Assembly (NCBI GenBank): GCA_013619125.1
Contig: JABXKS010000054.1
Location: forward strand, 52,224 to 105,978
Length of the DNA stretch: 53,755 nt
DNA from: Clostridiales bacterium
Lineage (GTDB): Bacteria > Bacillota > Clostridia > Tissierellales > GPF-1
Reading direction: 5' to 3'
Position 1 is the stretch's first letter; every line of letters starts with the position of its first letter. Shown here piece by piece: positions 34,836 to 51,930 of the stretch. Under the pieces are notes generated by a model. The model made no database searches and was not told the DNA's origin. It worked only from the letters and a program-made list of their open reading frames with translations. A program made the translations under genes and the position numbers.

Positions 34836-34891
34836 AATATATGATAAGCTGATAGAAATAAGAGTTGTATATAAGAAGGGTGTGTGATCCA

Positions 34892-35650
34892 ATGGGGTTT
34901 TTAGAACAAAAAATTGATAAGAGTACACCAATCCCCTTGTACTTTCAATTGAAGCAGATTATTCTGGGGATGATTGAAAATGGTGAATTAAAGCCAGGTG
35001 ACTCAATTCCTACAGAATATGAATTTATTTCCATGTATAGTTTGAGCCGGACGACTGTTCGCCAGGCAATTATAGAATTGGTGCAGGATGGTCTTTTGTA
35101 TCGGGTCAAAGGGAAAGGGACCTTTATTTCAAAGCCGAAGTTAGCGCAAGATTTTATGCAAAGATTGGAATCATTTGGTGAACAAATGAATCGACTTCAC
35201 GTGACGCCAAGTACAAAAGTCAAGAATTTAAAAGTGCTTAATGGGAACGCGGTGCATAAAACGATTCTTGCTGGATTGAATTTAAACGAGGATGATCAGG
35301 TGATTTATCTTGAACGGCTGCGATTTGCTAATGATCAGCCAATTGTTTTGGTTCGCACCTATTTGCCGATGATCTGTTTGAATATTCTCACCATGAATTT
35401 GGAAGAAGTAGGATTGTACGAGACATTATCGAATAGCGCCAATACGAAGATTGTAGAGGTAGAGCGACAGGTGGAAGCCATCTTGTCAGAACCCTATGAA
35501 AGTGAGTTATTGGAAATTCCGAAGCATAGTGCAGTTCAATTAACGACAACCGTGGGATTCAATGCGTATCATTCTCCGATCGAGTATTCAATTGCGAATT
35601 ATCGCGGAGATAAAAACAAATTCACTGTCAAGCTACGGGTGGGGGAATAA
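34892..35650 (+). CDS. GntR/HutC-family regulator, probable regulator of the sugar regulon
   Basis: 252 residues from ATG 34892. N-terminal winged HTH (PIPLYFQLKQIILGMIENGE, then SLSRTTVRQAIIEL and VKGKGTFIS) and a C-terminal UTRA domain ending EYSIANYRGDKNKF. The frame opens at 34865, but AGAAGGGTG precedes 34892. It is monocistronic, between the AGCS terminator and the promoter of the ABC operon. Copies of ATGTnnTGACAT before its own gene, the ABC operon, the deoC-like pair, the PatB-type gene and the nitroreductase gene make it the best candidate for binding that motif (inference). Confidence 0.9.
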   Translation: MGFLEQKIDKSTPIPLYFQLKQIILGMIENGELKPGDSIPTEYEFISMYSLSRTTVRQAIIELVQDGLLYRVKGKGTFISKPKLAQDFMQRLESFGEQMNRLHVTPSTKVKNLKVLNGNAVHKTILAGLNLNEDDQVIYLERLRFANDQPIVLVRTYLPMICLNILTMNLEEVGLYETLSNSANTKIVEVERQVEAILSEPYESELLEIPKHSAVQLTTTVGFNAYHSPIEYSIANYRGDKNKFTVKLRVGE

Positions 35651-35695: not shown

Positions 35696-35724
35696 TTGAC
35701 AAAAGATTCAGAGTTTTATATGAT
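35696..35724 (+). promoter_or_regulatory. Strong sigma-A promoter of the ABC-importer operon
   Basis: TTGACA (35696-35701), exactly 17 bp, TATGAT (35719-35724). This gives a leader of about 258 bases before the permease ATG. A degenerate operator (ATGATACGACAA, 35736-35747) lies just past the expected start. The 35651-35988 gap contains this promoter, a second one at 35857 and two motif copies, but no gene. Confidence 0.75.
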
Positions 35725-35988: not shown

Positions 35989-36981
35989 ATGGTCAAGGAT
36001 TTGGTCTTGGATCGCAATACGGGGAAAAACGAGGAGAAAAAGCAGGTTAAATGGTATAAGAAGATCACTCAATTTGAAGAGTTTGGAATTCTTATTGCGT
36101 TGATCGTAATTTGTGCAATCATTGCAATCGCGAATCCGATTTTCCTATCATTCGGTAATATTATGAATGTTTTAATGCAGATCTCTTTAGTTAGCATTAT
36201 GGCTGTTGGTGCGGCATTCGTTATTATCACCGGCGGCATTGATTTATCAGTAGGAAGCTCGTTAACACTAGGTGGGGTTTTGGCTGCTACGTTTTACAGC
36301 TTGGGATTTAATCCATGGATTGCATTGTTTTTAGCCGTGCTAATGGGAAGTTTTGTAGGAGCAATGAATGGATTGTTGATTGTAAAACTCAACATCAATC
36401 CGTTTATTACTACGATGGCGATGGCGAGTGTGATTAAAGGGCTGGCTTACCTGATTACAGGAGGGATGCCACTTTCCTTCAATACGGAGATTAACTTCTT
36501 GGGGGGAGGAACCTTTTTCAGCATTCCAGTTCCAGTCATCATTATGTTGATTATTATTCTTTTTGGACATGTACTTCTGACTAAGACCATTTTTGGGAAA
36601 TATGTTTTCGCGGTCGGTGGCAATGAGAAGTCGGCGAAATTATCTGGTGTGGATGTTCATTTAACTAAAATCAAGGTGTACAGCCTGCTGGGTGCATTGG
36701 GTGCTTTGGCAGGGGTCATCACCGCTTGCAATCTTCGAATCGCGGATACCGCAGCAGGAAATGGCAGAGAGATGGATGTGATCGCAGCGGTGGTCATTGG
36801 CGGTGCCAGTTTATCCGGGGGAAAAGGCTCAATCAAAGGCGTACTGATTGGAGCTGCCATTATGGGGGTCATTCGAAACGGCTTCGTCTTGCTTCGATTG
36901 TCTTCATATTTACAACTGATCTCGATCGGCGCGGTTATTGTCATTGCAGTTGCAATTGATCAATTGAGGAAGAAAAAATAG
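35989..36981 (+). CDS. Ribose-type ABC sugar importer, permease (RbsC-like)
   Basis: Membrane subunit of a CUT2-family importer, 330 residues. After a charged N-terminus of about 35 residues come eight to ten hydrophobic segments, with family blocks FVIITGGIDLSVGSSLTLGG and NEKSAKLSGVDV and the C-terminal VVIGGASLSGGKGS. The start is set at ATG 35989 because GGGAAGGGTGG precedes it; ATG 35944 has no ribosome site. It is first in the long operon. The single permease probably works as a homodimer, as in ribose systems. Confidence 0.92.
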   Translation: MVKDLVLDRNTGKNEEKKQVKWYKKITQFEEFGILIALIVICAIIAIANPIFLSFGNIMNVLMQISLVSIMAVGAAFVIITGGIDLSVGSSLTLGGVLAATFYSLGFNPWIALFLAVLMGSFVGAMNGLLIVKLNINPFITTMAMASVIKGLAYLITGGMPLSFNTEINFLGGGTFFSIPVPVIIMLIIILFGHVLLTKTIFGKYVFAVGGNEKSAKLSGVDVHLTKIKVYSLLGALGALAGVITACNLRIADTAAGNGREMDVIAAVVIGGASLSGGKGSIKGVLIGAAIMGVIRNGFVLLRLSSYLQLISIGAVIVIAVAIDQLRKKK

Positions 36982-36993
36982 GAGGCGGTGTTG

Positions 36994-38505
36994 ATGAAAA
37001 GGCGCGAAATTATTCGCTTAAGGGAAATCACAAAAAGCTTTCCAGGAGTCAAGGCGCTAGACAAAGTTGATTTATCGGTATTTGAAGGGGAAGTACATGT
37101 TCTCCTTGGTGAAAATGGAGCCGGAAAGTCTACGATGATGAATATAATTTGCGGTAATTATCAACCCGATGGAGGAGATATCTATTGGAACGGTGAACTG
37201 ACGCAGTTTCAAACACCACGTATTGCTCAAGAAGCAGGGGTGGGGATTGTTCACCAGGAAAACTCATTGCTCCCGCATTTAGACATAAAAAGTAATATAT
37301 TTTTAGGCCACTATCCAAAGACAGTTCTATTTTTAAATCAGAGATCGATTGAGAAGCAATCTCGCGAGTTACTTCGGAAGTTAGGTCTTGAGAATATGGA
37401 TGCGAATGATTATGTGGAAAGGCTCAGCTTAGCAGATAAGCAGATGGTTGAGATTGCAAAGGCAATTTCAATCTCGCCTAAATTACTTCTTTTGGATGAA
37501 CCAACAGCTGCGCTGACAAAGACAGAGATTGATATTCTTTTTAACATCATTAGAAAGCTGAAAAGCGAAGGCGTTGGCATTATCTACATATCGCATCGAT
37601 TGGAAGAAGTCTTTCAGATTGCGGATCGCGTGACGATCTTGCGGGATGGCGTTCGCGTATTGACCAAACCGGTGGAAGAAATGAATATTGATAGCGTGAT
37701 TCTGAATATGGTGGGAAGAAATCTTGACAAGCAAAAGAAAGAATTGGATTCAACGCAGGATCAATCCTATGACAAGGAAGTGCTTTTGCAGGTAGAGAAA
37801 TTGTCTGCGAAGGGAAGGTTCCATGATATTAATTTGAAGCTTCACAGGGGTGAAGTGTTAGGAATTGCCGGATTAGTCGGTGCTGGGCGCTCGGAGTTGC
37901 TGGAATCGATTTTTGGTTATACGGGATATGACGACGGTGAAATATTCATAAAAGGAAAAAAAGAGCGGATTAAACATCCGAAAGACGCTATACGCAATAA
38001 AATGGCATTGATTCCAGAAGAAAGAAAAGTGAAGGGTCTGTTCCTGAATGCTTCAGTCAAGGACAATATCAATCTGGTAACGATTGGCAGAAATAAGAAA
38101 AGGCTACTGTTGGATGATAAAAAGCAGCGAGACACCGCCAATCAATATGTGGAGCGATTGCAGATTAAAACACCGAGCATTGACAAACGCATTCAAGATC
38201 TGAGCGGCGGGAATCAACAAAAAGCCATATTGGCTCGATGGCTTTTGTCCAATCCGGAAATTTTGCTGTTGGATGAACCGACTCATGGCATCGATGTTGG
38301 CGCAAAGGGTGAGATTTATCAGATTATTCGAGATTTAAAAAAGGCGGGCATAGGGATTATCTTGGTTTCTTCAGAAATGCCGGAATTGATTTTGATGAGT
38401 GATCGCATTGCCGTTATGAACAATGGAGAACTGTCTGGGAAATTACGGAAAGAAGAAATCACGGAAGAAAATATTATGATGTTGGCAGCAGGCGTAAGCC
38501 TGTAA
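36994..38505 (+). CDS. Ribose-type ABC sugar importer, double ATPase (RbsA-like)
   Basis: 503 residues with two fused ATP-binding cassettes. N-half: Walker A GENGAGKST, Walker B LLLLDEPTAALT, and a degenerate signature LSLADKQMVEIAKA. C-half: a degenerate P-loop GLVGAGRSE, a canonical signature LSGGNQQKAILARW and Walker B ILLLDEPTHGID. This asymmetry is usual for CUT2 ATPases (RbsA, MglA). ATG 36994 lies 8 bases after GGAGG; GTG 36988 is too close. It follows the permease gene directly. Confidence 0.94.
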   Translation: MKRREIIRLREITKSFPGVKALDKVDLSVFEGEVHVLLGENGAGKSTMMNIICGNYQPDGGDIYWNGELTQFQTPRIAQEAGVGIVHQENSLLPHLDIKSNIFLGHYPKTVLFLNQRSIEKQSRELLRKLGLENMDANDYVERLSLADKQMVEIAKAISISPKLLLLDEPTAALTKTEIDILFNIIRKLKSEGVGIIYISHRLEEVFQIADRVTILRDGVRVLTKPVEEMNIDSVILNMVGRNLDKQKKELDSTQDQSYDKEVLLQVEKLSAKGRFHDINLKLHRGEVLGIAGLVGAGRSELLESIFGYTGYDDGEIFIKGKKERIKHPKDAIRNKMALIPEERKVKGLFLNASVKDNINLVTIGRNKKRLLLDDKKQRDTANQYVERLQIKTPSIDKRIQDLSGGNQQKAILARWLLSNPEILLLDEPTHGIDVGAKGEIYQIIRDLKKAGIGIILVSSEMPELILMSDRIAVMNNGELSGKLRKEEITEENIMMLAAGVSL

Positions 38506-38527
38506 ATGAAGCTGAAGGAGGATGAAT

Positions 38528-39562
38528 GTGAAAAAAACGGGAAAGCTTTTGATTATGGTATTGGTTTTGGTGTTGATGTTGACGGGTTGCAGTTCTGGAA
38601 CAAGTTCTTCAGAACCGGCTCCAAATGCAAGTGTTGAAGAACCTGCAGGTTTTCCAGATGTAGCGGCACCGGAGATCGCTGGTGTTGAGATCGTGGAACA
38701 AATGCCGGAAAAAGAATTGAATTTTGCATTTTTATGTTTCCAAAACAATCCATTTTGGGAATTGGTTCGAACGGGTTCAGATATTGGCGAGGAGTATTTG
38801 AAGAATTTCAATGTGAATGTTGATTATGTCGTCCTCGGAGATGTTTTGGATGCGCAGACGATCAATGCCGGAATTGATGCAGCGATTGTACAGCAATATG
38901 ATGGCATTATCGTAACGCCTTTTAGTCCAGGAACCGAAGTTTACATTGATAAGGCCGTTGACGCAGGGATTCCAGTGGTTACACTTTTTGGAGAGAGTCC
39001 AGTTCCATCAAAGAGAACCGCATTTTTGGGTCAAGAAGCCTATGCTGCAGGTCAGTATGCCGGGAAATATGTAGCAGATGAAGTTGAAGAACCAGGCAAA
39101 TTTGCGATTATCACCGGTTTGTTCAATGTTGATGTTCATGAGCAAAGAAGAAAAGGATTTGAAGATTATCTGCTCGATGCAGGTTGGGAGAATGTTGGAA
39201 CATATGAAGGTATGGACAAAGCGGATTTAACTTATAATTACGCCAAGGACATTATGACAGCGCATCCTGACGTGGCGGCGATTTACATGACCGCAGGCGG
39301 ACCTTTTGGAGCGGCGCGCGCGACTGTAGAGATGGACAAGGTTGATGATGTAATCGTTCTTGGATATGATGAAGTTCCAGAGAATCTTGATTACGTAGAA
39401 AATGGAGAAATGATTGCAATCAGTCAAGATACATCAGGTGTTGCGCTCAACGGATTGATTACGCTATATAATAAGGTTGTAGCGGACGTTGAACCAGATC
39501 CAGATTTTCTTCCATCAAAAACAGAAATGATTACACAAGAGAACGCAAGCAAATTTAGATAG
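38528..39562 (+). CDS. Sugar-binding lipoprotein of the ABC importer (RbsB-like)
   Basis: Extracellular substrate receptor, 344 residues. A signal peptide with lipobox LTGC places the lipid-anchored Cys at residue 21, followed by a Ser/Pro/Glu-rich linker. The binding domain is the type I fold: FLCFQNNPFWELVRTGS, IDAAIVQQYDGIIVTPF, AGIPVVTLFGE, and the C-terminal VIVLGYDEVPENL. GTG 38528 is preferred because GAAGGAGG ends 6 bases before it; ATG 38522 touches the site. Ribose-like fold, but the ligand cannot be read from sequence. A hairpin follows the gene. Confidence 0.92.
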   Translation: MKKTGKLLIMVLVLVLMLTGCSSGTSSSEPAPNASVEEPAGFPDVAAPEIAGVEIVEQMPEKELNFAFLCFQNNPFWELVRTGSDIGEEYLKNFNVNVDYVVLGDVLDAQTINAGIDAAIVQQYDGIIVTPFSPGTEVYIDKAVDAGIPVVTLFGESPVPSKRTAFLGQEAYAAGQYAGKYVADEVEEPGKFAIITGLFNVDVHEQRRKGFEDYLLDAGWENVGTYEGMDKADLTYNYAKDIMTAHPDVAAIYMTAGGPFGAARATVEMDKVDDVIVLGYDEVPENLDYVENGEMIAISQDTSGVALNGLITLYNKVVADVEPDPDFLPSKTEMITQENASKFR

Positions 39563-39582
39563 ATTTCTCCCCTATTCTATAT

Positions 39583-39614
39583 GCAAAGCAGAGAGAATCA
39601 ACTTTCTGCTTTGC
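39583..39614 (+). other. mRNA hairpin after the sugar-binding protein gene
   Basis: GCAAAGCAGA (39583-39592) pairs perfectly with TCTGCTTTGC (39605-39614). No T-run follows, so it probably protects the upstream message and keeps the receptor more abundant than the enzymes downstream. Confidence 0.6.
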
Positions 39615-39644
39615 AACCATCTACATTCGGTAAGGAGGTAACAC

Positions 39645-40037
39645 GTGGCTGTTCAACAGGTTGATCATATCGCAATCAATAGTTTTGACATGAAAGAATC
39701 TCTTCGTTTTTATTGTGAAGTTTTGGGTCTTGAAAAGGGTAAATCGGTCGATATGGGAGAAGTTATTCTTAATTATGTGGTTCTGCCAGATGGTTCTTCA
39801 ATCGAGTTGTTTGAATTCAAAGATCATGGATTTTATCAAACCCTCTCATCCAGTGAGAATGCAATCAAGCATATTGCCTTGAAAGTGGATGATATTGAGG
39901 GCATGAATTCGGAATTGATTCGGAATCAGGTTCCATTTGAAATGGAGCTATGTGAGCTGACGCCTCTTGGGGTGAAAGCGCTGTTATGCAAAGATCCCAA
40001 TGGTGTAATTGTTGAGTTAAGTGAGAAACTTATATAA
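39645..40037 (+). CDS. VOC superfamily protein (glyoxalase fold)
   Basis: 130 residues: QVDHIAINSFDMKESLRFYC, SSIELFEFKDHG, AIKHIALKVDD and DPNGVIVELSE give the His/Glu/His/Glu positions of a VOC metal site. GTG start with AAGGAGG. It lies between the importer and the canonical DeoC, so it probably acts on a pathway intermediate, as an epimerase, isomerase or lyase. It is a distant relative of the VOC protein at 30808. No better assignment is possible. Confidence 0.82.
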   Translation: MAVQQVDHIAINSFDMKESLRFYCEVLGLEKGKSVDMGEVILNYVVLPDGSSIELFEFKDHGFYQTLSSSENAIKHIALKVDDIEGMNSELIRNQVPFEMELCELTPLGVKALLCKDPNGVIVELSEKLI

Positions 40038-40070
40038 ATGAGAGTCATATAGTCTTAAGGAGGTTGTAAA

Positions 40071-40751
40071 ATGTTAAAAGCAAAGGATGTTGCACAATTA
40101 ATTGATGTGAGCGCAGTGAGGACGCATAATTCATTGACGGATATCGAAGAGGTCGTCGCATATGCGAAGGAGTACTCGTTTATCAATGTTCATGTATTGC
40201 CTAGCTGGGTCGAGACCCTTGCGCCAATGATCAAAGAGGTTCCGGATGTGTATGTTGGTTCGCCGGTTGGATTTCCATCAGGTGCGCACAAAACATCGAC
40301 AAAGTTGAATGAAGCAAAGGAATTGATCGAAGATGGCGTTGAAGAAATGGATATCGTTATGAATGTCGGAAAATTCAAGAGCCAGGAATATGATTACGTG
40401 CTTGACGAATTGAAGCAGATCATTGGCCTGGCAAAAGATGCGGACCGAAAAATCATGACGAAGGTATTGATTGAACTGAATACCTTAACGGATGAAGAAG
40501 TTGAGCGAGCCTGCCAATTGGTCATCGATAGCGGAGCGGACTTTTTGAAAACGGGTACGGGTTGGGTTCCCGGAACTGCAAACGTCGAACGAATTCGTAA
40601 AATCATGGCGTGGGTAGGAGATAAAGTGAAGGTGAAAGCAGCAGGCGGAATTCGAACAAGAGAAGATTTTTTAGCTTTGTATGACATGGGCGTACAGCGC
40701 ATGGGCATCAATACAAAATCGGCAATTGAAATTGTGAAATCCTTCGAATAG
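40071..40751 (+). CDS. Deoxyribose-phosphate aldolase family protein (canonical DeoC active site)
   Basis: 226 residues. The three active-site residues are intact: Asp94 (EMDIVMN), Schiff-base Lys160 (FLKTGTGWVPG) and Lys189 (VKVKAAGGIRT). AGGAGG precedes the ATG. As no nucleoside phosphorylase or phosphopentomutase gene is near, the substrate may be a different 2-deoxy or keto sugar phosphate made by the FGGY kinase that follows. It is the third DeoC-family protein in 13 kb and the only one with a full active site. Confidence 0.9.
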   Translation: MLKAKDVAQLIDVSAVRTHNSLTDIEEVVAYAKEYSFINVHVLPSWVETLAPMIKEVPDVYVGSPVGFPSGAHKTSTKLNEAKELIEDGVEEMDIVMNVGKFKSQEYDYVLDELKQIIGLAKDADRKIMTKVLIELNTLTDEEVERACQLVIDSGADFLKTGTGWVPGTANVERIRKIMAWVGDKVKVKAAGGIRTREDFLALYDMGVQRMGINTKSAIEIVKSFE

Positions 40752-40999
40752 AGAACCGAGGGCCATAACAGTTGGAAGAAAAGTAAGTAACGGAGCGACG
40801 GTTGAGGCCTGAGCAACGATTACATAGCTAGATAAATGTTTCGCGTGGAGGAAAAGTCTTTTATGTCTCCAATGTGATTGAAGGAAAGGGTAATTGGTCG
40901 ATAAAAATAGTGACGCAAATATGGTTCGGCAATCATGTATGATTGAATCAGGATAAAGCAATAGGATGTTCAATAATATGGAGATAGCGGGAGGAAACG
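40752..40999 (+). other. Intergenic gap inside the catabolic cluster
   Basis: 248 bp between the canonical DeoC gene and the kinase gene. No promoter with good hexamers, no regulatory motif copy and no open frame with a ribosome site was seen. The region may be decayed sequence. Confidence 0.4.
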
Positions 41000-42508
41000 A
41001 TGAGACGGTTGATTTTGGCACATGACTTGGGGACAAGTGGTAATAAAGCCTGTTTGTTTGATGTTGACGGCAAGCTGCTCGATAGTGCTTATGAAACATA
41101 CGAAACATATTATCCGCAAGCGGGGTATGTGGAGCAAGATCCAAATGACTGGTGGGAAGCGGTAAAAAAGTCAACAAAAGGCGTTTTAAGTAAACAGAAA
41201 GTTCTTCCAGAAGAAGTAATTGCGATCTCATTCAGTGCACAGTCTTTAGGGTGTGTTCCTGTTGATCAAGATGGAAATTGCTTAAGAGATAAGACACTGA
41301 TCTGGATGGATGGACGTGCTGTTGAGGAGTCGCAATTCATTATCAAGTCTTTTGGTGATCGACGGCATTACGAAACAACGGGCAATAGCTTTGATCTTTC
41401 TTTATATCCTTGTTCAAAAATCGTATGGCTGATGAAGCATGAGCCGAAACTTTATGATGAAACCTACAAATTCATAGGTACCAAAGAATACATTATCGGT
41501 AAATTAACGGGTGTAGTCGGAATGACCGATTATTCGGAAGCAGGGATGTCAGGGCTTTTCAATTTAAGAGAGCATCACTATGAATCGGAACTTCTTGCAC
41601 TTACAAATATTGATCCAGAAAAGCTGTGCAAACCAGTCAAAAACACAACAATTGTGGGAACTGTTCTGCAGATGGTTGCTGAAGAACTCGGATTGTCAGC
41701 TGAAACAAAAGTTGTTTTGGGAACCATGGATAATTTGGCTTGCGCGATCGGTGCGGGATGCATGAATCAAGGAACTTTTGTTACCACATTGGGTACGGCT
41801 GGATGGATTGGTGTGAATCATAGCGAGCCGATCATGTCAGAGGATTTCAAGGCCAATGTCATGTATGTTGGAGACGGCGTGTACCATACAAGCATGCATT
41901 CCCATTCTGCTTGTGTTACCTATGATTGGGTTGTCAGCAATATGGTGACGAATAAGAGCGGTCAATTCGAAGAATTGGAGTCGATGGCGAAAAGTGTTGA
42001 ACCGGGAGCAGACGGATTGTTCTTTATGCCTAGTTTTCTAAGTGGGAATACAATCTATTCATCTCCGTATCTTGCGGGTGCTTTTTTAGGACTTAGATTG
42101 CATCATACGCAGAGTCATCTTGTTCGGGCAGCCCTTGAAGGGGTTGGCTTTGATTTGATGATGGGCATGGAGTTCTTTGAATCAATGGGAAACCGGCCAT
42201 CTGAGGTTCGGTTGATTGGCGGTGGCGCGAAGAATAATCTATGGAGACAAATCCTAGCGGATATGTTTGATGCTACAATGACTCTCCCCAATAATATGCA
42301 GCATATTGGTGCTATGGGGGCTGCGATGATTGCAGGAGTTGGAGCTGGGGTAATCAAAGATTTTTCTAGGATTGACAGCATTATCAATCCATCGGATCCC
42401 ATGGAACCCAAAAAAGAGGAAACAGAGATCTATCGAAAACTGCTTCCGGCATACAAAGCTTGCTATGAGCAATTGATGCCAGTATATGATTTGCAGAATC
42501 AAAAATAA
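41000..42508 (+). CDS. FGGY-family carbohydrate kinase (XylB-like)
   Basis: ATP-dependent sugar kinase, 502 residues. The first domain has the phosphate loop HDLGTSGNKACLFD and WMDGRA. The second has TLGTAGWIG, the FGGY-type stretch FMPSFLSGNTIYSSPYLAGAF and the adenosine block IGGGAKNNLWRQILADMF. Closest in general form to xylulose kinases, though the family covers many pentoses, hexoses and polyols. Likely the entry step after the ABC importer. GGGAGG precedes the ATG. A hairpin follows the gene. Confidence 0.92.
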   Translation: MRRLILAHDLGTSGNKACLFDVDGKLLDSAYETYETYYPQAGYVEQDPNDWWEAVKKSTKGVLSKQKVLPEEVIAISFSAQSLGCVPVDQDGNCLRDKTLIWMDGRAVEESQFIIKSFGDRRHYETTGNSFDLSLYPCSKIVWLMKHEPKLYDETYKFIGTKEYIIGKLTGVVGMTDYSEAGMSGLFNLREHHYESELLALTNIDPEKLCKPVKNTTIVGTVLQMVAEELGLSAETKVVLGTMDNLACAIGAGCMNQGTFVTTLGTAGWIGVNHSEPIMSEDFKANVMYVGDGVYHTSMHSHSACVTYDWVVSNMVTNKSGQFEELESMAKSVEPGADGLFFMPSFLSGNTIYSSPYLAGAFLGLRLHHTQSHLVRAALEGVGFDLMMGMEFFESMGNRPSEVRLIGGGAKNNLWRQILADMFDATMTLPNNMQHIGAMGAAMIAGVGAGVIKDFSRIDSIINPSDPMEPKKEETEIYRKLLPAYKACYEQLMPVYDLQNQK

Positions 42509-42512
42509 CAGC

Positions 42513-42543
42513 TTCGAGAGAGTCCTGTTTGGGTTCTCTCGAA
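42513..42543 (+). terminator. Hairpin after the FGGY kinase gene
   Basis: A perfect 9-bp stem TTCGAGAGA (42513-42521) with TCTCTCGAA (42535-42543). The following sequence is only weakly T-rich, so it may be a partial terminator or mRNA-stabilising hairpin. A motif copy lies just after it. Confidence 0.55.
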
Positions 42544-42556
42544 AATTTGATGTTTC

Positions 42557-42568
42557 ATGTTACGACAT
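42557..42568. promoter_or_regulatory. Candidate GntR operator before the nitroreductase gene
   Basis: ATGTTACGACAT, one mismatch to ATGTnnTGACAT with outer ATGT/ACAT arms intact. It suggests an internal controlled start for the second half of the cluster. Confidence 0.45.
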
Positions 42569-42606
42569 AACAACATTATTAGTCGTATCAAAGTTAGGAG
42601 AATCTT

Positions 42607-43131
42607 ATGGGAAACTCAGATTTAATGGGTTTATCAATCTTCAGGCGTCGAAGTATTCGAAGATTTCGCAAGGAATCAATCAAGAAAGAGCAAATCCAGT
42701 TTATCTTAGACGCAGCCATGGCTGCACCCTCAGCCAATAATTACCGTCCTTGGGACTTTCTCGTGATTGATCAGGCTAAGCATTTGAAATTTCTTGCTGG
42801 AGAGTTGAAGTATGGTCAGGTATTGAATGAGGCTCAGGCAGCAATTCTCGTATGCGGAGTCCAGGAACACAACGGAAAGCCTGATGATTTTTGGGTACAA
42901 AGCTGTAGCGCTTCCACACAAAATATTTTGCTCGGCTTGACGGAAATTGATCTTGGTGGTGTTTGGTTGGGCATCTATCCGCGTGAAGATCGGATGGAGA
43001 TGTTGCGGAATCAATTTGAGCTGCCAACGATGGTGATCCCTTTTTCACTTGTTGCTTTGGGGGTTCCTTTGGATCAGACAAAAAGCATAAGAACGATTGA
43101 AAAAAACAAAGTGCATTGGAATCAATGGTGA
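42607..43131 (+). CDS. Nitroreductase family flavoprotein
   Basis: FMN-dependent NAD(P)H oxidoreductase, 174 residues. It has the family opening FRRRSIRRFRKESIKKEQI, the FMN-binding AAMAAPSANNYRPWDFLVI, and the C-terminal LGVPLDQTKS. Short like the minimal members of the family. TTAGGAG precedes the ATG. Placement inside a sugar cluster is unusual; it could reduce an enone or quinone-like intermediate or dispose of electrons (inference). Confidence 0.88.
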   Translation: MGNSDLMGLSIFRRRSIRRFRKESIKKEQIQFILDAAMAAPSANNYRPWDFLVIDQAKHLKFLAGELKYGQVLNEAQAAILVCGVQEHNGKPDDFWVQSCSASTQNILLGLTEIDLGGVWLGIYPREDRMEMLRNQFELPTMVIPFSLVALGVPLDQTKSIRTIEKNKVHWNQW

Positions 43132-43173
43132 AACAATTCAGAATAATTTGATTAAAAATTTGGAGGAAATAAA

Positions 43174-43755
43174 ATGATTAAAGAGCCTTTCGTACAAGAA
43201 TTTAATATGCAGTCAGGATTATCGTCCGAGGAATCGACAACAGCCAGATATCTTTCTCGAGTAAAAGGGATGTTTGCAGATGAAGCAGCGTATGAGGAAA
43301 AGCTTGCTGAGGGTGATGTGAAGATTTACGACTTTACCGAATTGGGTTTTGATGAAGTTGAACAGGATTTGTTGTTTGGTACGAGCATCACGTATCCAGG
43401 CAAAATCGGAAACGAGTATTTTATGACAAAAGGCCATTTCCATACCATTTTAGACTTGGCGGAAGTATATTTTTGTCTTGGCGGAGAAGGTTATCTTCTA
43501 CTGGAGACGCCAGAAGGTGAATGGAAAGCTGAGTATTGTACCCCGGGAAAAGCCGTTTATGTTCCAGGGCGTTGGGCTCACCGCAGCATCAATGTCGGAA
43601 CAGAGCCATTTATTACCTATTTTGTTTTTCGCGCTGATGCCGGACATGATTACGGATCGATTGAAGACAAAGGATTTCGCAAATTAATGGTTGAGCAGGA
43701 TGGGAAACCAACAATTATTGATAATCCGAAGTGGAAGAGTGAAGGAGCGGAGTAA
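43174..43755 (+). CDS. Cupin-type glucose-6-phosphate isomerase (archaeal PGI family)
   Basis: 193 residues. The metal-binding residues appear at His88, His90 (KGHFH), Glu97 (AEVYF) and His136 (WAHRS), which is the same numbering as recalled for Pyrococcus furiosus PGI. YxPGKxxYVPG-type text follows. The family interconverts aldose and ketose phosphates. In this context it probably isomerises the phosphorylated product of the FGGY kinase rather than serving glycolysis. GGAGG before ATG. Its stop overlaps the next start by one base (TAATG). Confidence 0.9.
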   Translation: MIKEPFVQEFNMQSGLSSEESTTARYLSRVKGMFADEAAYEEKLAEGDVKIYDFTELGFDEVEQDLLFGTSITYPGKIGNEYFMTKGHFHTILDLAEVYFCLGGEGYLLLETPEGEWKAEYCTPGKAVYVPGRWAHRSINVGTEPFITYFVFRADAGHDYGSIEDKGFRKLMVEQDGKPTIIDNPKWKSEGAE

Positions 43756-44690
43756 TGGGATTCAAAATACTTGTAACAGCGCGATCATTTTCAAAAAACG
43801 ATGAAACGCCGAAAAAAATGCTGTTGCAAAAGGGTTATGAAGTGATATCAAATCCGTATGGACGGATTATGACAGAGGATGAGATTATGGAATTAATCCA
43901 TGATGTGGACGGTATCATTTTGGGAGTCGATCCTTTTGGGAAAGGTGTCTTTGAGCAGGCTAAGAAGCTGAAAGTTATTTCGAGATACGGAGTTGGCACG
44001 GATAATATCGATAAGGAGAGCGCCAGCGAGCGGGATATCCCTATTTTTCGGACGGTTGGAGCCAATACTGAAGCCGTTGCGGATTATGCATTTGGTTTAA
44101 TGCTTGATTTAACCCGAAAAATAGCGTTTATTGATCGGCAGTGCAGAAATGGAAATTGGACGAAAATCAAAACGCGTGAGATGAATGGGAAGGTACTGGG
44201 CTTGATTGGATTTGGAGCAATCGGCAAGGCTGTAGCGCGACGGGGCGCTGGCTTTAATATGAAGATTATGGTCTACGACCCCTATGCAAATATTGAGGAA
44301 GCAAAGCGACTTGGCGTAGAGTTTGTGGGGTTGAAAACCCTGTATCGGGATTCGGATTTTATCTCTTTGCATGTTCCTTTGGTCGAAGAAACAACGCATA
44401 TGATCAATCGAGAAGCCTTTCGTGCGATGAAACCATCTGCCGTTGTAGTCAATACAGCGCGGGGTGGTATTGTAGATGAAGCAGCCCTTCTTGAGGCGTT
44501 GCAGACAGGAGAGATCGCAGCGGCAGGGGTGGATGTATTCGATGTGGAACCTCCGGCAAATCCAGATTTGATGAAACTCGACAACCTACTGGTCGGTGCG
44601 CATTGTGCGGCTTCATCCATTGAGGCGATCGATAAGATGAGTTATATGGCAGCGGAGAACTTAATTCATGCGCTAGAGATGAATAATTAA
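43755..44690 (+). CDS. D-2-hydroxyacid dehydrogenase (phosphoglycerate dehydrogenase-like)
   Basis: NAD-dependent oxidoreductase, 311 residues. The catalytic triad is Arg236 (NTARGGIVD), Glu265 (FDVEPP) and His283 (VGAHCAASS). The Rossmann motif GFGAIG spans 152-157 and the substrate-binding block is SRYGVGTDNID. There is no ACT domain, so it is not a regulated SerA. It is coupled to the cupin isomerase by TAATG. Likely oxidises a sugar-derived hydroxyacid, or reduces the 2-keto acid released by the aldolase that follows. Confidence 0.92.
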   Translation: MGFKILVTARSFSKNDETPKKMLLQKGYEVISNPYGRIMTEDEIMELIHDVDGIILGVDPFGKGVFEQAKKLKVISRYGVGTDNIDKESASERDIPIFRTVGANTEAVADYAFGLMLDLTRKIAFIDRQCRNGNWTKIKTREMNGKVLGLIGFGAIGKAVARRGAGFNMKIMVYDPYANIEEAKRLGVEFVGLKTLYRDSDFISLHVPLVEETTHMINREAFRAMKPSAVVVNTARGGIVDEAALLEALQTGEIAAAGVDVFDVEPPANPDLMKLDNLLVGAHCAASSIEAIDKMSYMAAENLIHALEMNN

Positions 44691-44709
44691 AAATTAACGG
44701 GGGGAAAAA

Positions 44710-45357
44710 ATGGATAAAGAGCAAGTTATACAAAGAATTACGGAAGTTGGCTTAGTTGCCGTGGTACGAGCTGAGTCCGCGGAACAAGCCAAGAAGATTA
44801 CGGATGCATGCATTAAAGGCGGCGTCGCGGCAATCGAGATTACTTTTACGGTACCTGGCGCGGCAAAAATTATTGAAGAGTTGGCAGAGACATATTCAGA
44901 GGATGAAATTATCCTGGGTGCGGGAACCGTTCTGGATTCGGAGACCGCTAGGATTGCAATTTTAAGTGGTGCTCAATATATTGTGAGTTCGAGTTTCAAC
45001 GAAGCAACGGCAAAGCTGTGCAATCGATATCGCATTCCCTATATGCCAGGATGCATGACCATGAGAGAAGTTGTTGAAGCCATGGAATTTGGAGCAGATA
45101 TTATCAAGGCATTCCCTGGGAATATGTTGGGACTCGATTTTATTAAAAGTATTAAAGGACCCATGCCGCAGGTAAAAATGATGCCGACGGGTGGTGTGAA
45201 TGTCGAGAACGTAGCGGATTGGATCAATGTAGGAGTAGTAGCTTGTGGAGCGGGAAGCAGCCTTACTGCAGGCGCGAAAACAGGCGATTATGAATTGGTT
45301 ACAAAAACCGCTAAGGCATTTATTAAGAATATTAAAGCAGCGAGGATGAAGCTGTAA
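44710..45357 (+). CDS. KDPG/KHG aldolase (Eda family)
   Basis: 215 residues, TIM-barrel class I aldolase. Glu43 (AIEITF) and the Schiff-base Lys133 (DIIKAFPGN) match Eda positions 45 and 133. AGTVLD, SSSFNEA, PGCMT and MPTGGVN are all conserved. Splits 2-keto-3-deoxy acid phosphates into pyruvate and an aldehyde. A GGGGG site precedes the ATG. Its presence means that the imported compound is at some point turned into a 2-keto-3-deoxy acid. Confidence 0.94.
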   Translation: MDKEQVIQRITEVGLVAVVRAESAEQAKKITDACIKGGVAAIEITFTVPGAAKIIEELAETYSEDEIILGAGTVLDSETARIAILSGAQYIVSSSFNEATAKLCNRYRIPYMPGCMTMREVVEAMEFGADIIKAFPGNMLGLDFIKSIKGPMPQVKMMPTGGVNVENVADWINVGVVACGAGSSLTAGAKTGDYELVTKTAKAFIKNIKAARMKL

Positions 45358-45367
45358 GGAGGATATG

Positions 45368-46318
45368 ATGAGTGTGATTTTGCCAAAACAAGCAACACAG
45401 CCAACCTTTTATTTTGTTGGTGTTACAACAGGAAAATCGTCAATTATGAAAGTGTTCCCTCGTTGGGCAAAAGAGGTATTCTCGCTTGAGGGAGCGGTGA
45501 TCAAGGGAATTGATATGGAACTCAATTCAAAACCTGAGGATTATCGGGCGGTTGTTGAATTTATGAAGAATGATCCGCTTTCCATGGGGGCATTGGTTAC
45601 CACGCATAAGTTGGACCTGTACGAAGCTTGCGAAGATTTATTCGAGTATCTTGATCCGCATGCGCGTCATTTTCGAGAGTTGTCTTGCATCTCAAAAAGA
45701 AATGGTCAAATTCGTGGACATGCAAAAGACCCCATTTCTAGCGGATTAGCGATGGAAGCTTTCGTACCGAATGGATTCTGGGAAGAGAATCGCGGTGAAG
45801 TCTTTATCATGGGTGCTGGGGGCGCAGCTCTTGCCATCAGTTCATATTTAACGAAACCGGAATTTAAGGAAAATGTGCCTTCTCGAATTATAATCTCAGA
45901 GTGTGATGAATTGCGGTTGGTCCATGCGCAAGAGAAGTTGAAAGCGCTAAATCCAAATGTGGAAATTGAGTATGTATTGGCGAGCGCTAATGGCGGAAAT
46001 GATGACTTCCTCACAACGGTAAAGCCCTATTCTTTGATTGTCAATGCTACGGGAATGGGAAAAGATCGCCCGGGTTCTCCATTGAGCGGGCTAGCGGCAT
46101 TCCCGAATCATGCTTTGGCTTGGGAATTAAACTATCGCGGGAATTTAGTCTTTGTTGAACAGGCTATGTCACAGAAAGATGAAAAAGAAATAAAAGTTGA
46201 AGATGGCTGGATTTATTTCATCCATGGTTGGACCCAAGTCATTGCTGAAGTTTTCGATATTGAGATTACAGATTTTATGCTGGACGAGTGCAGTCGAATC
46301 GCAAAAGAGGTACGGTAG
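45368..46318 (+). CDS. Shikimate dehydrogenase-like oxidoreductase
   Basis: AroE-superfamily NAD(P) oxidoreductase, 316 residues from ATG 45368 (ATG 45365 is too close to AAGGAGG). It keeps the catalytic Lys81 (VTTHKLD) and Asp121 (GHAKDPISSG), the glycine-rich GAGGAALAI and the NATGMG block. It differs from true AroE in the GFNTD motif (here HAKD), in longer inserts and in the C-terminal region (WELNYRGNLVFVEQA). Probably dehydrogenates a cyclic or acid-sugar substrate of this pathway rather than shikimate. No other aromatic-pathway gene is near. A terminator follows. Confidence 0.8.
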   Translation: MSVILPKQATQPTFYFVGVTTGKSSIMKVFPRWAKEVFSLEGAVIKGIDMELNSKPEDYRAVVEFMKNDPLSMGALVTTHKLDLYEACEDLFEYLDPHARHFRELSCISKRNGQIRGHAKDPISSGLAMEAFVPNGFWEENRGEVFIMGAGGAALAISSYLTKPEFKENVPSRIIISECDELRLVHAQEKLKALNPNVEIEYVLASANGGNDDFLTTVKPYSLIVNATGMGKDRPGSPLSGLAAFPNHALAWELNYRGNLVFVEQAMSQKDEKEIKVEDGWIYFIHGWTQVIAEVFDIEITDFMLDECSRIAKEVR

Positions 46319-46347
46319 ACAAAGGGGAGAAATCCCCTTTGTTTTTA
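46319..46347 (+). terminator. Intrinsic terminator after the shikimate-dehydrogenase-like gene
   Basis: A 10-bp stem ACAAAGGGGA (46319-46328) with TCCCCTTTGT (46333-46342), a GAAA loop and five T residues. The phosphotriesterase-like gene follows 38 bp later. Confidence 0.88.
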
Positions 46348-46384
46348 AGATAAGCAAGGCGATCCGCAGATTGGGAGGTGAAAT

Positions 46385-47335
46385 ATGACAAAAGTGCGAA
46401 CGATACTTGGAGATATTCCGATTAACCAAATGGGGCATACGCAGTGTCATGAGCATTTATTTATCCGAGAGGGAAGACCACGGGTAGTCAATCAGAATCT
46501 ATGGCTTGAAAGTTCCATGCGTACTTTGGAAGAGCTTGAAAGCTTTAAGGAATGTGGCGGTGGTACGGTTGTGGACGCGCAACCGATTGGCTGTGGACGA
46601 ATGCCGAGACTGCTTGAAGAAGTATCAAGAGAAAGTGGTGTGAATGTCATTGCATCGACGGGATTTCATAAGCTGATATTTTATTCGCAGGATCATTGGA
46701 TCCATTCACTCGGAGTTGAAGCGTTGACGAAGATTTTTGTGAAGGAAATAGTCGAAGGCATGTATATTGCCTGCGATTATTCGGTTCCTACGGTGCAGGT
46801 ACCGCTTAAGGCGGGGATGATAAAAGTTGCTCTTGACCACGAGGGAGTCACGAAAGCATATCGGAAGATGCATTTTGCAGCGATGCAAGCTGCGAATTTA
46901 ACTGGGGTATCGATTCAATGCCATATGGAAACAATGGATAACGCTGAGGAGCTTGTTTATTATTATGAATCGATGGGATTTGATTTATCCAGGTTGATTC
47001 TGGCCCATGTTGATCGGAAGTATGACAATGTGAATTTGATCCTGAACGTATTGAAGAAGGGTGTTTTTGTGGAATTGGATACAATTGGACGGGAACATTG
47101 TCATGATATGCAGACAGAGATCAACTTGATTAAGCGATTGATTGCCAATGGATTTAGCGATCAAATCTTAATGGGATTAGATACGACTCGGGGGCGCATG
47201 ATTTCATATGGGGGAAGGATTGGATTGTCCTATATTCTTTCGGAATTTTTGCCTCAATTGGAGGCGAGCGGTGTGAAACGCGAGTGGATTAACGAGATGC
47301 TACACGTCAATCCGCAACGCGCATTGTCTATATAA
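46385..47335 (+). CDS. Phosphotriesterase-like metal hydrolase / lactonase
   Basis: Amidohydrolase-superfamily barrel, 316 residues. Binuclear metal ligands are all visible: His22 and His24 (CHEHLF), Lys147 (AGMIKVA, carbamylated in relatives), His180 (QCHME), His208 (AHVDRK) and Asp266 (GLDTTR). Bacterial relatives hydrolyse lactones of sugars or acyl-homoserine, or phosphosugar lactones. The last gene of the cluster; ring opening of a sugar lactone would fit a pathway that ends in a 2-keto-3-deoxy acid aldolase (inference). GGGAGGTG precedes the ATG. Confidence 0.88.
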   Translation: MTKVRTILGDIPINQMGHTQCHEHLFIREGRPRVVNQNLWLESSMRTLEELESFKECGGGTVVDAQPIGCGRMPRLLEEVSRESGVNVIASTGFHKLIFYSQDHWIHSLGVEALTKIFVKEIVEGMYIACDYSVPTVQVPLKAGMIKVALDHEGVTKAYRKMHFAAMQAANLTGVSIQCHMETMDNAEELVYYYESMGFDLSRLILAHVDRKYDNVNLILNVLKKGVFVELDTIGREHCHDMQTEINLIKRLIANGFSDQILMGLDTTRGRMISYGGRIGLSYILSEFLPQLEASGVKREWINEMLHVNPQRALSI

Positions 47336-48040: not shown

Positions 48041-50197
48041 ATGAATGCATTAAAGAAACGTGCGCAATTGATTGTTCAATATTTGTTGGATCAAGACCAG
48101 GCAATTACGGTGGGGCGAATCGCCAAGCATTTTCGTGTGAGTCCTCGTACAGTTCGTTATGACCTGGATGAGATTGATTATTGGTTGCGGAAGCATGAGG
48201 TCTTGCTGAAGAAGGCGCCGCACAAGGGCATTTGGATTGAAGATGTTGATCGGGCAAACGAAGTTTTGAAAAATGTGATTGCAACAAAGGTTGATCACCC
48301 CTACCAATTCTACAGCAAGGAAGAACGGCAAAAAATTATTTTGGGGCAATTGTTTGACAGTAAAGAGTATGTGATTGTGGAAGAGTTGGCGAATCGAGTT
48401 AATGTAAGCAAGTCCACTTGCTATAAAGATGTAGCCGAGCTGGAAGACTGGTTGAAGGAAAGAAAGATCGTGCTGTTGAAAGTGCCGAACAAGGGAATTC
48501 GTTTACAGGCAGAGGAACGGGACTGGCGCCGGGGGCTGATCGACTATCTGGATTCCTGCTTGGGTGACAAGCAAATACTTGAGTTGCTAAGTGTTACCCG
48601 CACAGAATCGACTCGATTGCAGTTTCTATTGGATCATCAATTAAAGACGCTGTTTTCTTCCATTGATTTTTTTGTTATTGAGGAACTGATCTTTCAAATT
48701 CAGGGATCTCTGGATATCGAATTTGTGGATACGGCTTTTGCCGGTCTAATGATTCATATCGCTATTGCCTTGGATCGACTAAAGAGCGGTGAATTGATTG
48801 AGATGCCGGAAGAACGATTGACCAATCTGATTGGCAGCCTTGAATTCGAGGTGATTCAACAATTGTTGGAAGAATCTTCATTACTGGGAAATCAGGCAGT
48901 GCCTGCTGCTGAGATTGGTTATATTACCATTCATGTTTTGGCGGCGAAGCTGAGGAGAAATCATCAAGATACAAATGAATTGAAGCCTGGAGATCGTGAT
49001 GCCAAGATGTTGGATGTAATCCGAGAATATATCGCTAAGGTCAGTTTGGAGATTGGGGTGGATTTATCAACAGACCCTTCTCTGATTCAAAATATGCTTT
49101 TGCATATCAGACCCTTGATTCGAAGACTGGAGTTTGGTCTTCGAAATCGGAATCCTTTGTTAAAGGAATTGAAAAGCAATTATCCGGTGATCTTTCGAGC
49201 CTGCAATCAATGGGCGAAGCTGTTCGAGGAAGCGTATCAAATTAAACTGGATGAGCATGAGGTCGGATTTTTGACCATGCATCTGGGCGCGTCGATTGAA
49301 CGAAGGGTGCGAACGGATCGAAAGAAGGGATTCTCGGTTGCAGTTGTCTGCAGTTCGGGGATTGGGACTTCAAAAATGCTGTCCAGCCGGTTGGCCTATG
49401 AATTTAAGGAAATCGATTCACTGGAAGAATTCTCTGTGCTGGAAATGAATGAGGTGGATTTCAAGAAATTTGATTTGGTGATCTCGACGATTCCGGTGGA
49501 ATTGGAACCTGGAATCAAGGTGATTGAGGCAAGTCCGCTTTTGCAGCGATCGGAGATCGAGGAGATTCAGCGTTTTCTATCGGCGCAAGACGAGCACCGA
49601 TTTCAATCGGTGAATGCAAAGGTTAGCGAGGTTTATCAAATTATTCAGAAGCATTGCGATATTCGAGATATGGATCAATTGATTCAGGATTTGGGTCAGG
49701 CTTTTTCAAAGAACGGCAAAAATTCCGCGTCCATATCGGATGAAGCGGGAGCGGATCTTTGGGATTACTTGAATCGCCATACGGTTCGAATCGAGCGGGT
49801 AAAAACAGATCTTGAAAATGCCATTCGACAAACGGCTCAACCCTTGATCGCTGAGGGAAAGATTGAAGAGAGATATGTGGACGCCATGTTGAAATTGGTT
49901 GAAACCATGCCAAAGCATATGGTTCTGTGTAAGGGCTTTTTTATGCCGCATGCGGCACCCTTCGACGGAGTGAATGAAACCAGCATGAGCTTGATGATTT
50001 TTCAAAAAGCCATTGAAACTGATTTTGAAGACAATGGGATCCATGCGGTACTGGTTGTTGCTGCGGAAGACGATAGCAAGCATATGCGTGCGATGCAGCA
50101 ATTGGTGGACATTCTTAATCATCCGAATATCGTGGATCAATTAAAGGATTGTAGCGATGAAAAAGAAGTGCTTCGGATATTGAAGCGAATTGTGTAG
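48041..50197 (+). CDS. BglG/MtlR-type PTS-regulated transcriptional activator
   Basis: 718 residues. Order: two HTH domains (RAQLIVQYLLDQDQAITVGR, then VEELANRVNVSKSTCYKDVA), PRD1 (about 190-300), PRD2 (about 310-420), a PTS EIIB-like domain (VAVVCSSGIGTSKMLSSRL, cysteine present) and a C-terminal EIIA-like domain with MPHAAP. Phosphorylation of PRD and EII sites links activity to PTS flux and HPr. It binds DNA (unlike antiterminator BglG). It precedes an ascorbate-family PTS operon by 56 bp in the same direction with no promoter between, so they are probably cotranscribed. Confidence 0.93.
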   Translation: MNALKKRAQLIVQYLLDQDQAITVGRIAKHFRVSPRTVRYDLDEIDYWLRKHEVLLKKAPHKGIWIEDVDRANEVLKNVIATKVDHPYQFYSKEERQKIILGQLFDSKEYVIVEELANRVNVSKSTCYKDVAELEDWLKERKIVLLKVPNKGIRLQAEERDWRRGLIDYLDSCLGDKQILELLSVTRTESTRLQFLLDHQLKTLFSSIDFFVIEELIFQIQGSLDIEFVDTAFAGLMIHIAIALDRLKSGELIEMPEERLTNLIGSLEFEVIQQLLEESSLLGNQAVPAAEIGYITIHVLAAKLRRNHQDTNELKPGDRDAKMLDVIREYIAKVSLEIGVDLSTDPSLIQNMLLHIRPLIRRLEFGLRNRNPLLKELKSNYPVIFRACNQWAKLFEEAYQIKLDEHEVGFLTMHLGASIERRVRTDRKKGFSVAVVCSSGIGTSKMLSSRLAYEFKEIDSLEEFSVLEMNEVDFKKFDLVISTIPVELEPGIKVIEASPLLQRSEIEEIQRFLSAQDEHRFQSVNAKVSEVYQIIQKHCDIRDMDQLIQDLGQAFSKNGKNSASISDEAGADLWDYLNRHTVRIERVKTDLENAIRQTAQPLIAEGKIEERYVDAMLKLVETMPKHMVLCKGFFMPHAAPFDGVNETSMSLMIFQKAIETDFEDNGIHAVLVVAAEDDSKHMRAMQQLVDILNHPNIVDQLKDCSDEKEVLRILKRIV

Positions 50198-50253
50198 AAA
50201 TGCTTCCCGAATGGGATTCATGAATAGATTGTAAACGAGAAGGAGGAAGTGTA

Positions 50254-50538
50254 ATGATTCAGATCTTAACAGTGTGTGCAGTAGGGGTCGGTTCGAGTTT
50301 GATGTTAAAAATGAATGCTGACAAAGTGGTAAAGAATCATGGGTTTAAGGCAAAGATCGAGAACACAAATATGACAGGGGCCATGGGGTATAAGCCAGAT
50401 ATTTTGATTACAACGGCTGATATCTATGGACAGATTAAAGGAATCAAAGCAAAAGAAGTTGTTATTTTAACGAATATGGTGAGCAAGAAAGAATTGGAAG
50501 AAAAGCTTGTACCAGCATTGGAAACAGTATCTAAATAA
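50254..50538 (+). CDS. PTS lactose/ascorbate-family EIIB component (UlaB-like)
   Basis: 94 residues. The phosphorylated cysteine is Cys8 in the P-loop LTVCAVGVGSSLML, as in UlaB and SgaB-type proteins. The length is normal. AGGAGG before ATG. It is followed by a hairpin and the IIC gene, and belongs with the IIC and IIA downstream. Ascorbate or another sugar acid is the family substrate; the true one is unknown. Confidence 0.92.
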   Translation: MIQILTVCAVGVGSSLMLKMNADKVVKNHGFKAKIENTNMTGAMGYKPDILITTADIYGQIKGIKAKEVVILTNMVSKKELEEKLVPALETVSK

Positions 50539-50544
50539 TAAAGG

Positions 50545-50605
50545 GACTAAAGCCATTGATTTGTTCGAATCCCGCAAAAGATTTTTAAAATGAATGACTT
50601 TAGTC
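50545..50605 (+). other. Hairpin between the PTS IIB and IIC genes
   Basis: GACTAAAGCCATT (50545-50557) and AATGACTTTAGTC (50593-50605) pair with one mismatch. No T-run follows. Probably an RNA-processing or stability element that separates the small soluble subunit from the membrane subunit. Confidence 0.5.
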
Positions 50606-50644
50606 ACCTGCATTATAACACAATTTTGTAATGGAGGAGAAAGC

Positions 50645-51916: not shown

Positions 51917-51930
51917 TTTGGAGGAGCACA

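Follow-up and report, generated by a model that had tools for sequence, protein, structure and literature searches.

A conserved five-gene core with a shikimate dehydrogenase-like enzyme in a clostridial sugar cluster, and a possible Entner-Doudoroff-like route

A run of twelve genes in a 53,755-nucleotide stretch of DNA from a Clostridiales bacterium (contig JABXKS010000054.1 of assembly GCA_013619125.1, positions 52,224 to 105,978; the whole stretch is referred to here as the window) combines a ribose-type importer and an FGGY sugar kinase with an unusual set of enzymes, and was taken in a preliminary description to be a single sugar-acid catabolic cluster. The locus raises the question of whether these genes form one unit and of what chemistry they might carry out. 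All twelve are uninterrupted open reading frames on the + strand (35989-47335), as originally described, and profile searches support the families named for them. The statement that their combination is no recognised pathway also holds within the reach of a literature search, thin in its coverage of subscription journals, which returned no account of the five-gene set analyzed here or of a bacterial 3-deoxyfructose pathway. The notion of a single cluster is only partly upheld. The run consists of two units, a core of five genes (43174-47335) and a half containing the importer, VOC, DeoC, FGGY kinase and nitroreductase genes. The core is real and conserved, and the cluster as first described is a composite.

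Conservation and co-divergence of the core

The core encodes, in order, a cupin phosphoglucose isomerase (cPGI, 43174..43755; PF06560, 99 bits, cut-off 20.7), a D-2-hydroxyacid dehydrogenase (2-HADH, 43755..44690; PF02826/PF00389, nearest solved relative the phosphoglycerate dehydrogenase 1wwk), a 2-keto-3-deoxy-6-phosphogluconate (KDPG) aldolase (44710..45357; PRK06552, 306 bits, cut-off 238), an AroE-like dehydrogenase that falls in no Pfam family and was placed by its structural model and fold (45365..46318), and a hydrolase of the phosphotriesterase (PTE) family, proposed to be a phospho-lactonase (46385..47335; PF02126, 159 bits, cut-off 22.4). Relatives of the AroE-like protein were located in 435 stretches of a one-genome-per-species collection, of which the best 80 loci were kept, a related and non-random set in which some loci share one contig (L009/L010, L047/L048); six alphaproteobacterial plasmid loci bring the set to 86. 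Neighbours were counted by tblastn, independently of the open reading frame maps of the loci, which missed the AroE-like frame in L026, L061 and L067, and the counts are lower bounds because of short contigs. Within 5 kb of the AroE-like gene, cPGI was found in 71 of the 80 loci, 2-HADH in 60, PTE in 50 and KDPG aldolase in 46, and extending the distance to 10.5 kb gained only 3, 2, 3 and 1 further loci, respectively. Among non-core genes, relatives of the GntR regulator (30/80), the FGGY kinase (22/80) and RbsA (18/80) were found within 5 kb at intermediate frequency, and DeoC (5/80), VOC (1/80), RbsB of the window type (1/80) and the nitroreductase (0/80) rarely or never. The expected co-occurrence of the AroE-like, PTE and cPGI genes is thus borne out, and the same comparison splits the original cluster in two.

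The proteins of the core also diverge together. Pairwise distances among the five correlate with r between 0.59 and 0.74 (0.71 for the AroE-like protein with 2-HADH and 0.73 with PTE), and none of 999 Mantel permutations, which leave shared ancestry in, reached any of these values; matches covering less than 70% of the query or lying more than 10.5 kb away were dropped. The FGGY kinase correlates with the core proteins at r of only 0.17-0.32, and the AroE-like protein with RbsA and RbsC at 0.38 and 0.32. The correlations of PTE with RbsA (0.69) and RbsC (0.68) indicate, however, that the importer is not independent within the PTE-bearing subset.

The AroE-like protein is rare near the host, being encoded by 1 of 249 genomes in the host order and by 5 of 398 in the phylum. 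The four other loci of the phylum range from L104 and L105, with 2-HADH, PTE, AroE-like and cPGI genes, to L107, with 2-HADH, KDPG aldolase, AroE-like and GntR genes, and L106, with the PTE and AroE-like genes only. The 435 stretches, which are not equivalent to genomes, extend from relatives of Paenibacillus and Bacillus to gut Lachnospiraceae. Rhizobial plasmids also carry the gene; all 15 plasmid records with an AroE-like gene carry proteobacterial genus names. The cPGI was discarded as a marker of the pathway, since PF06560 scores above its cut-off in 95 of the 398 phylum genomes, versus 5 for the AroE-like protein.

The other half of the run begins with an RbsC-type permease (35989..36981; PRK09512), an RbsA/XylG-type ATPase (36988..38505) and an RbsB-like sugar-binding lipoprotein (38522..39562; weak RbsB/AlsB-type matches of 42-58 bits), whose best NCBIfam models score 261, 536 and 58 bits, each under its curated cut-off (398 and 699 for the first two). 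They are followed by a VOC/glyoxalase-fold protein (39645..40037; PF00903, 50 bits), a divergent DeoC (40071..40751; TIGR00126, 183 bits, cut-off 117), an FGGY kinase (41000..42508; PF00370, PF02782) scoring below the xylulokinase cut-off (TIGR01312, XylB, 326 versus 380 bits), and a nitroreductase-family protein (42607..43131; PF00881, 77 bits). Of 391 genomes of the class, three, counting that of the host, encode relatives of the RbsB-like protein (E 1e-45). One of these genomes, G804, carries an FGGY-RbsC-RbsA-RbsB-DeoC-DeoC-DeoC-VOC unit (L103) and, approximately 2 Mb away, a complete PTE-AroE-like-cPGI-2-HADH-KDPG aldolase core (L109), showing that the halves are separable. Two of the three genomes, the host and G804, encode the AroE-like protein, even though only five in the phylum do, and it was not found in the third (G811) at an E-value of 1e-10; three genomes are too few for this co-occurrence to be pressed.

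Alignment of the window DeoC reveals that its catalytic Asp, Lys and Lys are kept, in agreement with its family score, and that GINTKS replaces the C-terminal GTSS phosphate loop. The enzyme is therefore not the canonical DeoC it had been called, and the acetaldehyde-forming cleavage once assigned to it is doubtful because of this altered loop. The GINT sequence recurs in relatives (41-72% identity) that are close to the core in L033, L066 and the Sinorhizobium locus L086 and distant from it in L103. Three tandem DeoC paralogues are present in L066 (7143-9261), L103 (10813-12931) and L101 (6294-8312). In L066 and L103 the second paralogue lacks both catalytic Lys residues and the third retains one; in L101 it is the third, which contains one stop read as X, that lacks both. 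Judged by these residues, such paralogues may perhaps form mixed complexes that include inactive subunits.

Active sites and the AroE-like enzyme

Conserved residues were counted among matches with at least 28% identity and 80% query coverage. In cPGI, which aligns along its full length with the archaeal phosphoglucose isomerase 1j3p (E 1e-59), residues H88, H90, E97 and H136, which we take to be metal ligands, are kept in at least 97% of 79 rows. The same threshold is reached by H22, H24, K147, H180, H208 and D266 of the PTE-like protein (51 rows), which would make up a binuclear metal site, by R236, E265 and H283 of 2-HADH (68 rows), and by K133 of the KDPG aldolase (50 rows). Assuming that these residues have the catalytic and metal-binding roles known for their families, all four proteins look enzymatically active.

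The AroE-like protein has no Pfam match at an E-value of 0.001, and the best NCBIfam shikimate dehydrogenase model gives it 30 bits against a cut-off of 413. Its AlphaFold2 model (mean pLDDT 91) nevertheless superimposes on shikimate/quinate dehydrogenases over 275 residues, almost its full length (Z 27.3, rmsd 3.1, 16% identity), and on 5-ketofructose reductase with a Z-score of 26.4. K81, K120 and D121 are invariant in all 57 rows of an alignment comprising 50 of the 80 loci, the six plasmid loci and the window. When its profile is compared with that of the AroE of the host itself, just a central segment aligns (probability 85%). In this segment D121 coincides with the catalytic Asp, and Lys120 with a Thr of AroE; K81 was assigned to the catalytic Lys by eye. 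With these assignments, the Lys/Asp pair of AroE is present in the AroE-like enzyme. In shikimate, the carbon bearing the carboxyl group and the carbon that is oxidised are related 1,3, as are C5 and C1 of a hexopyranose-6-phosphate; on this geometry the enzyme may oxidise C1 of such a sugar phosphate, C3 being the other geometric option. Several plasmid records name this protein shikimate dehydrogenase; should it prove to act as a dehydrogenase of sugar phosphates, this annotation would be mistaken, and a sugar on which the carriers live would await naming.

The alphaproteobacterial loci, viewed in 6 of the 15 plasmid records (Rhizobium, Pararhizobium, Sinorhizobium, Marinovum and Lichenicola), bear on the role of the PTE-like protein. 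The AroE-like gene is accompanied there by cPGI, 2-HADH and an RpiR/SIS regulator in all six loci, by KDPG aldolase in five, and by FGGY and importer genes within 10.5 kb in all six. PTE is absent from all six, and its place is occupied in every case by a hydrolase of the metallo-beta-lactamase (MBL) fold, which is found in none of the other 80 loci. Among proteins of solved structure, the MBL-fold protein of L084 has weak matches that include SaxA (E 6.8e-9) and UlaG, an ascorbate-6-phosphate lactonase (E 5.5e-6), and the best NCBIfam model for the PTE-like protein of the window is a phospho-furanose lactonase (NF045706). The simplest job common to both families would be the ring opening of a phospho-lactone. 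As the six loci are related, the swap from PTE to MBL possibly represents one event. SMP-30 proteins, which lie beside the core in some loci, were rejected as a further substitute, their exclusion of PTE not being significant (among the 86 loci, both in 2, PTE only in 48, SMP-30 only in 5; Fisher p 0.12). A second and stronger PTE-family gene (286 bits) is located on the same host contig, outside the window (C54:42587-43456).

A possible oxidative route and its rivals

Taken together, the families, conserved catalytic residues, fold, co-occurrence and co-divergence described above lead us to propose, tentatively and with somewhat less than an even chance of being right, that the core is a general oxidative route for a phosphorylated hexose, resembling the Entner-Doudoroff pathway without its dehydratase. 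First, a kinase, FGGY in this case, would convert the sugar into a ketose-6-phosphate, which cPGI would isomerise to the aldose-6-phosphate; the AroE-like enzyme would oxidise C1 of the ring to give a phospho-lactone, which the PTE-like protein, or the MBL-fold enzyme in alphaproteobacteria, would open to the aldonate-6-phosphate; 2-HADH would then oxidise C2 to yield a 2-keto acid, and KDPG aldolase would cleave this into pyruvate and glyceraldehyde-3-phosphate. The AroE-like enzyme and 2-HADH, which had no definite step in the preliminary description, are hereby given putative ones. The import, phosphorylation, isomerisation, lactone oxidation, PTE hydrolysis and pyruvate-yielding cleavage envisaged there all fit the families, active sites and neighbourhoods, although none is proven.

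KDPG aldolase requires a 2-keto-3-deoxy acid, which is normally the product of a dehydratase. The host genome (98.4% complete) contains no sugar-acid dehydratase above cut-off in the four families searched, other dehydratase families not having been searched: PF00920 is represented by two contig-end fragments, and the typed one of the two scores as IlvD (331 bits, versus 95 for Edd), MR_MLE_C reaches only 26 bits, under its cut-off, and neither GD_AH_C nor UxuA was found. The two ilvD fragments, in the first 679 bases of contigs C6 and C114, are alike in 633 of 679 bases and represent two copies or an assembly effect. By elimination, this lack favours a 3-deoxyhexose, such as 3-deoxyfructose derived from 3-deoxyglucosone, with which every core enzyme would have a productive step and a dehydratase would be superfluous. 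The 3-deoxyketose-6-phosphate would be isomerised to the 3-deoxyaldose-6-phosphate, oxidised to the lactone, opened to the 3-deoxyaldonate-6-phosphate and oxidised to KDPG, which would yield pyruvate and glyceraldehyde-3-phosphate. A deoxy sugar would also suit both DeoC and KDPG aldolase, because both cleave beside a CH2 alpha to a carbonyl, but this is only a hint. Both 3-deoxyfructose and 3-deoxyglucosone are products of Maillard chemistry and deglycation. We regard a 3-deoxy substrate for the core as possible but somewhat unlikely. The fuller picture, a multi-phylum, dehydratase-free Entner-Doudoroff variant consuming 3-deoxyhexoses, with a hexose-6-phosphate dehydrogenase of shikimate dehydrogenase fold, exchangeable PTE and MBL lactonases and a DeoC short cut from 3-deoxyfructose-6-phosphate to hydroxyacetone and glyceraldehyde-3-phosphate, is rather unlikely as a whole. 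If the 3-deoxy reading is true, it would constitute a microbial route for consuming 3-deoxyglucosone-type products.

Several observations weigh against the proposed route and its 3-deoxy form. Within 5 kb, 34 of the 80 loci have no KDPG aldolase and 30 no PTE; L104 and L105 retain the remaining core genes, with no KDPG aldolase within 20 kb; and in 16 of the 86 loci, 2-HADH and all three lactonase families (PTE, MBL and SMP-30) are missing from the 5-kb range. The phospho-furanose lactonase model scores 138 bits on the window PTE, missing its cut-off of 630, and the match of the L084 MBL-fold protein to UlaG is weak, SaxA matching better. Dehydratases, moreover, appear to be available elsewhere in other carriers, given that MR_MLE_C (enolase-superfamily) proteins exceed the cut-off in every one of 14 genomes except that of the host (13 of 14), and GD_AH_C proteins occur in 4 of the 14. 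Proteins of the IlvD/Edd family, not typed as one or the other, number at least two in 16, one in 12 and none in 1 of 29 carrier genomes (L020 excluded).

These points feed into three rival explanations. The same order of enzymes could act on an ordinary rare hexose or hexitol, 2-HADH then yielding a 2-keto-hexonate-6-phosphate and a dehydratase encoded elsewhere, or an unusual aldolase specificity, completing the route. This explanation overlaps the general route and differs in substrate; it is favoured by the enolase-superfamily proteins of most other carriers and by polyol or sugar dehydrogenase relatives within 5 kb of the AroE-like gene (38, 34 and 31 of the 80 loci for the overlapping queries ADHa, ADHb and ADHc), but the host shows no match above cut-off, IlvD excepted, in the four dehydratase-containing families, and pyruvate is the donor used by KDPG aldolases. 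We consider this explanation unlikely. It is comparably improbable that the AroE-like enzyme is a reductase or dehydrogenase whose target, like that of 5-ketofructose reductase, is some ring carbon besides C1, and that with cPGI it feeds a keto-sugar phosphate to glycolysis, PTE, 2-HADH and KDPG aldolase forming a second branch. The 16 loci lacking 2-HADH and a candidate lactonase, in several of which cPGI and FGGY adjoin the AroE-like gene (e.g. L016, L019, L024), would fit such an arrangement, as would the fold shared with 5-ketofructose reductase; against it stands the co-divergence of the AroE-like protein with 2-HADH and PTE. One report describes 5-ketofructose reductase as related to shikimate dehydrogenases, and also a putative shikimate dehydrogenase of clostridial origin as inactive on 5-ketofructose, which speak for and against this rival, respectively (PMC7954740). 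Two unrelated pathways lying side by side, with the importer-FGGY-DeoC unit and the AroE-like core serving different sugars, would account for the near absence of DeoC, VOC, nitroreductase and window-type RbsB genes beside the core and for the distant units of G804. In four loci from two phyla (the window, L033, L066 and the Sinorhizobium locus L086), however, a DeoC of the same subfamily is present in the 20-25 kb examined around the core, and two of the three genomes with window-type RbsB carry the otherwise rare AroE-like protein; this explanation is quite unlikely. 

Other substrates suggested by individual loci were set aside. A cyclitol route was rejected, as it has no place for cPGI, even though some neighbours resemble IolG (291 bits, cut-off 355) and IolM (201 bits, cut-off 450). 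GH88-like neighbours occur within 5 kb in 5 of the 80 loci, and the one typed matches a beta-galactosidase model (BglB) best, with 94 of 420 bits, below cut-off, so the sugar cannot be read from this gene. NagB-like neighbours (9/80 within 5 kb) and a PIG-L gene hint at amino sugars in few loci only. Formaldehyde fixation was not used as an explanation: HxlA (248 bits) and HxlB (225 bits) exceed their cut-offs in L104, and relatives of the two adjoin the core in L104 and in L025, whose contig is also that of L105; further relatives occur at the margin of L034, and L043 has only a PHI match (25% identity, E 5e-5). The 3-hexulose-6-phosphate synthase and 6-phospho-3-hexuloisomerase genes stand directly 3' of the core cPGI gene in L104 (11307-12504) and L025 (12612-13808); in L104, genes for two ribose pyranases, a ribokinase and two DeoC proteins come next.

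Surroundings and comparison with known systems

Upstream of the importer genes lies a GntR/UTRA regulator (34865..35650, + strand; PF00392 and PF07702), the probable regulator of the unit. Relatives of this gene are found near the AroE-like gene in the 30 loci mentioned above, and the unit therefore probably starts with the regulator. Between it and the importer genes lies the promoter-like site that scores best in the region (35696-35724, 11 of 12 positions). Terminator-like hairpins 3' of FGGY (42513-42543) and between the AroE-like and PTE genes (46322-46340) could be attenuators, in a scan that barely exceeded chance (14 hairpins, versus a mean of 10.0 and standard deviation of 3.1 in shuffles). 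Some 700 bases separate the 3' end of the PTE-like gene from the next large open reading frame, a BglG-type regulator with a phosphotransferase system (PTS) region, which together with ascorbate-type PTS components IIB, IIC and IIA occupies 48041-52380. In L008 (11110-14535), the AroE-like gene adjoins a gene for a 1140-residue protein that joins [FeFe]-hydrogenase to pyridine-nucleotide oxidoreductase domains, an arrangement that might serve to get rid of excess reductant; members of the same protein cluster occur in L007 and L010 (only the L008 protein was typed). A pyruvate-formate-lyase-like glycyl-radical enzyme lies near the core in L009 (1962-4325), with members of the same cluster in L054 and L075 (only that of L009 was typed).

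The enzyme families of the core are all known; judging from sequence, its novelty would lie in an Entner-Doudoroff-like oxidation assembled from unrelated enzymes, for an as yet presumptive substrate. The Entner-Doudoroff pathway (Zwf, Pgl, Edd, Eda) shares with the core the proposed sequence from aldose-6-phosphate through lactone and acid to KDPG and thence to pyruvate and glyceraldehyde-3-phosphate, as well as the KDPG aldolase (Eda) itself. The core differs in its cupin isomerase, its proposed AroE-fold dehydrogenase, its PTE- or MBL-fold lactonase, an added 2-HADH and the lack of a dehydratase, no Edd being recognised in the host. With shikimate/quinate dehydrogenases and 5-ketofructose reductase the AroE-like protein shares the whole fold, and Lys81 and Asp121 at the position of the catalytic pair; it differs from shikimate/quinate dehydrogenases in its low identity, the lack of a Pfam match, Lys120 in place of the AroE Thr and its location in an operon of sugar enzymes, in a host with a separate AroE. 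The PTE-family phospho-furanose lactonases (NF045706; solved structures 3msr and 3ovg) are the best NCBIfam and PDB matches of the window PTE, whose metal-site residues are kept; the window protein scores far below their model, and a lactonase function is proposed for it. The archaeal cupin phosphoglucose isomerase (1j3p), finally, resembles the window cPGI along its full length and in its metal ligands, whereas the window enzyme is located in a catabolic operon.

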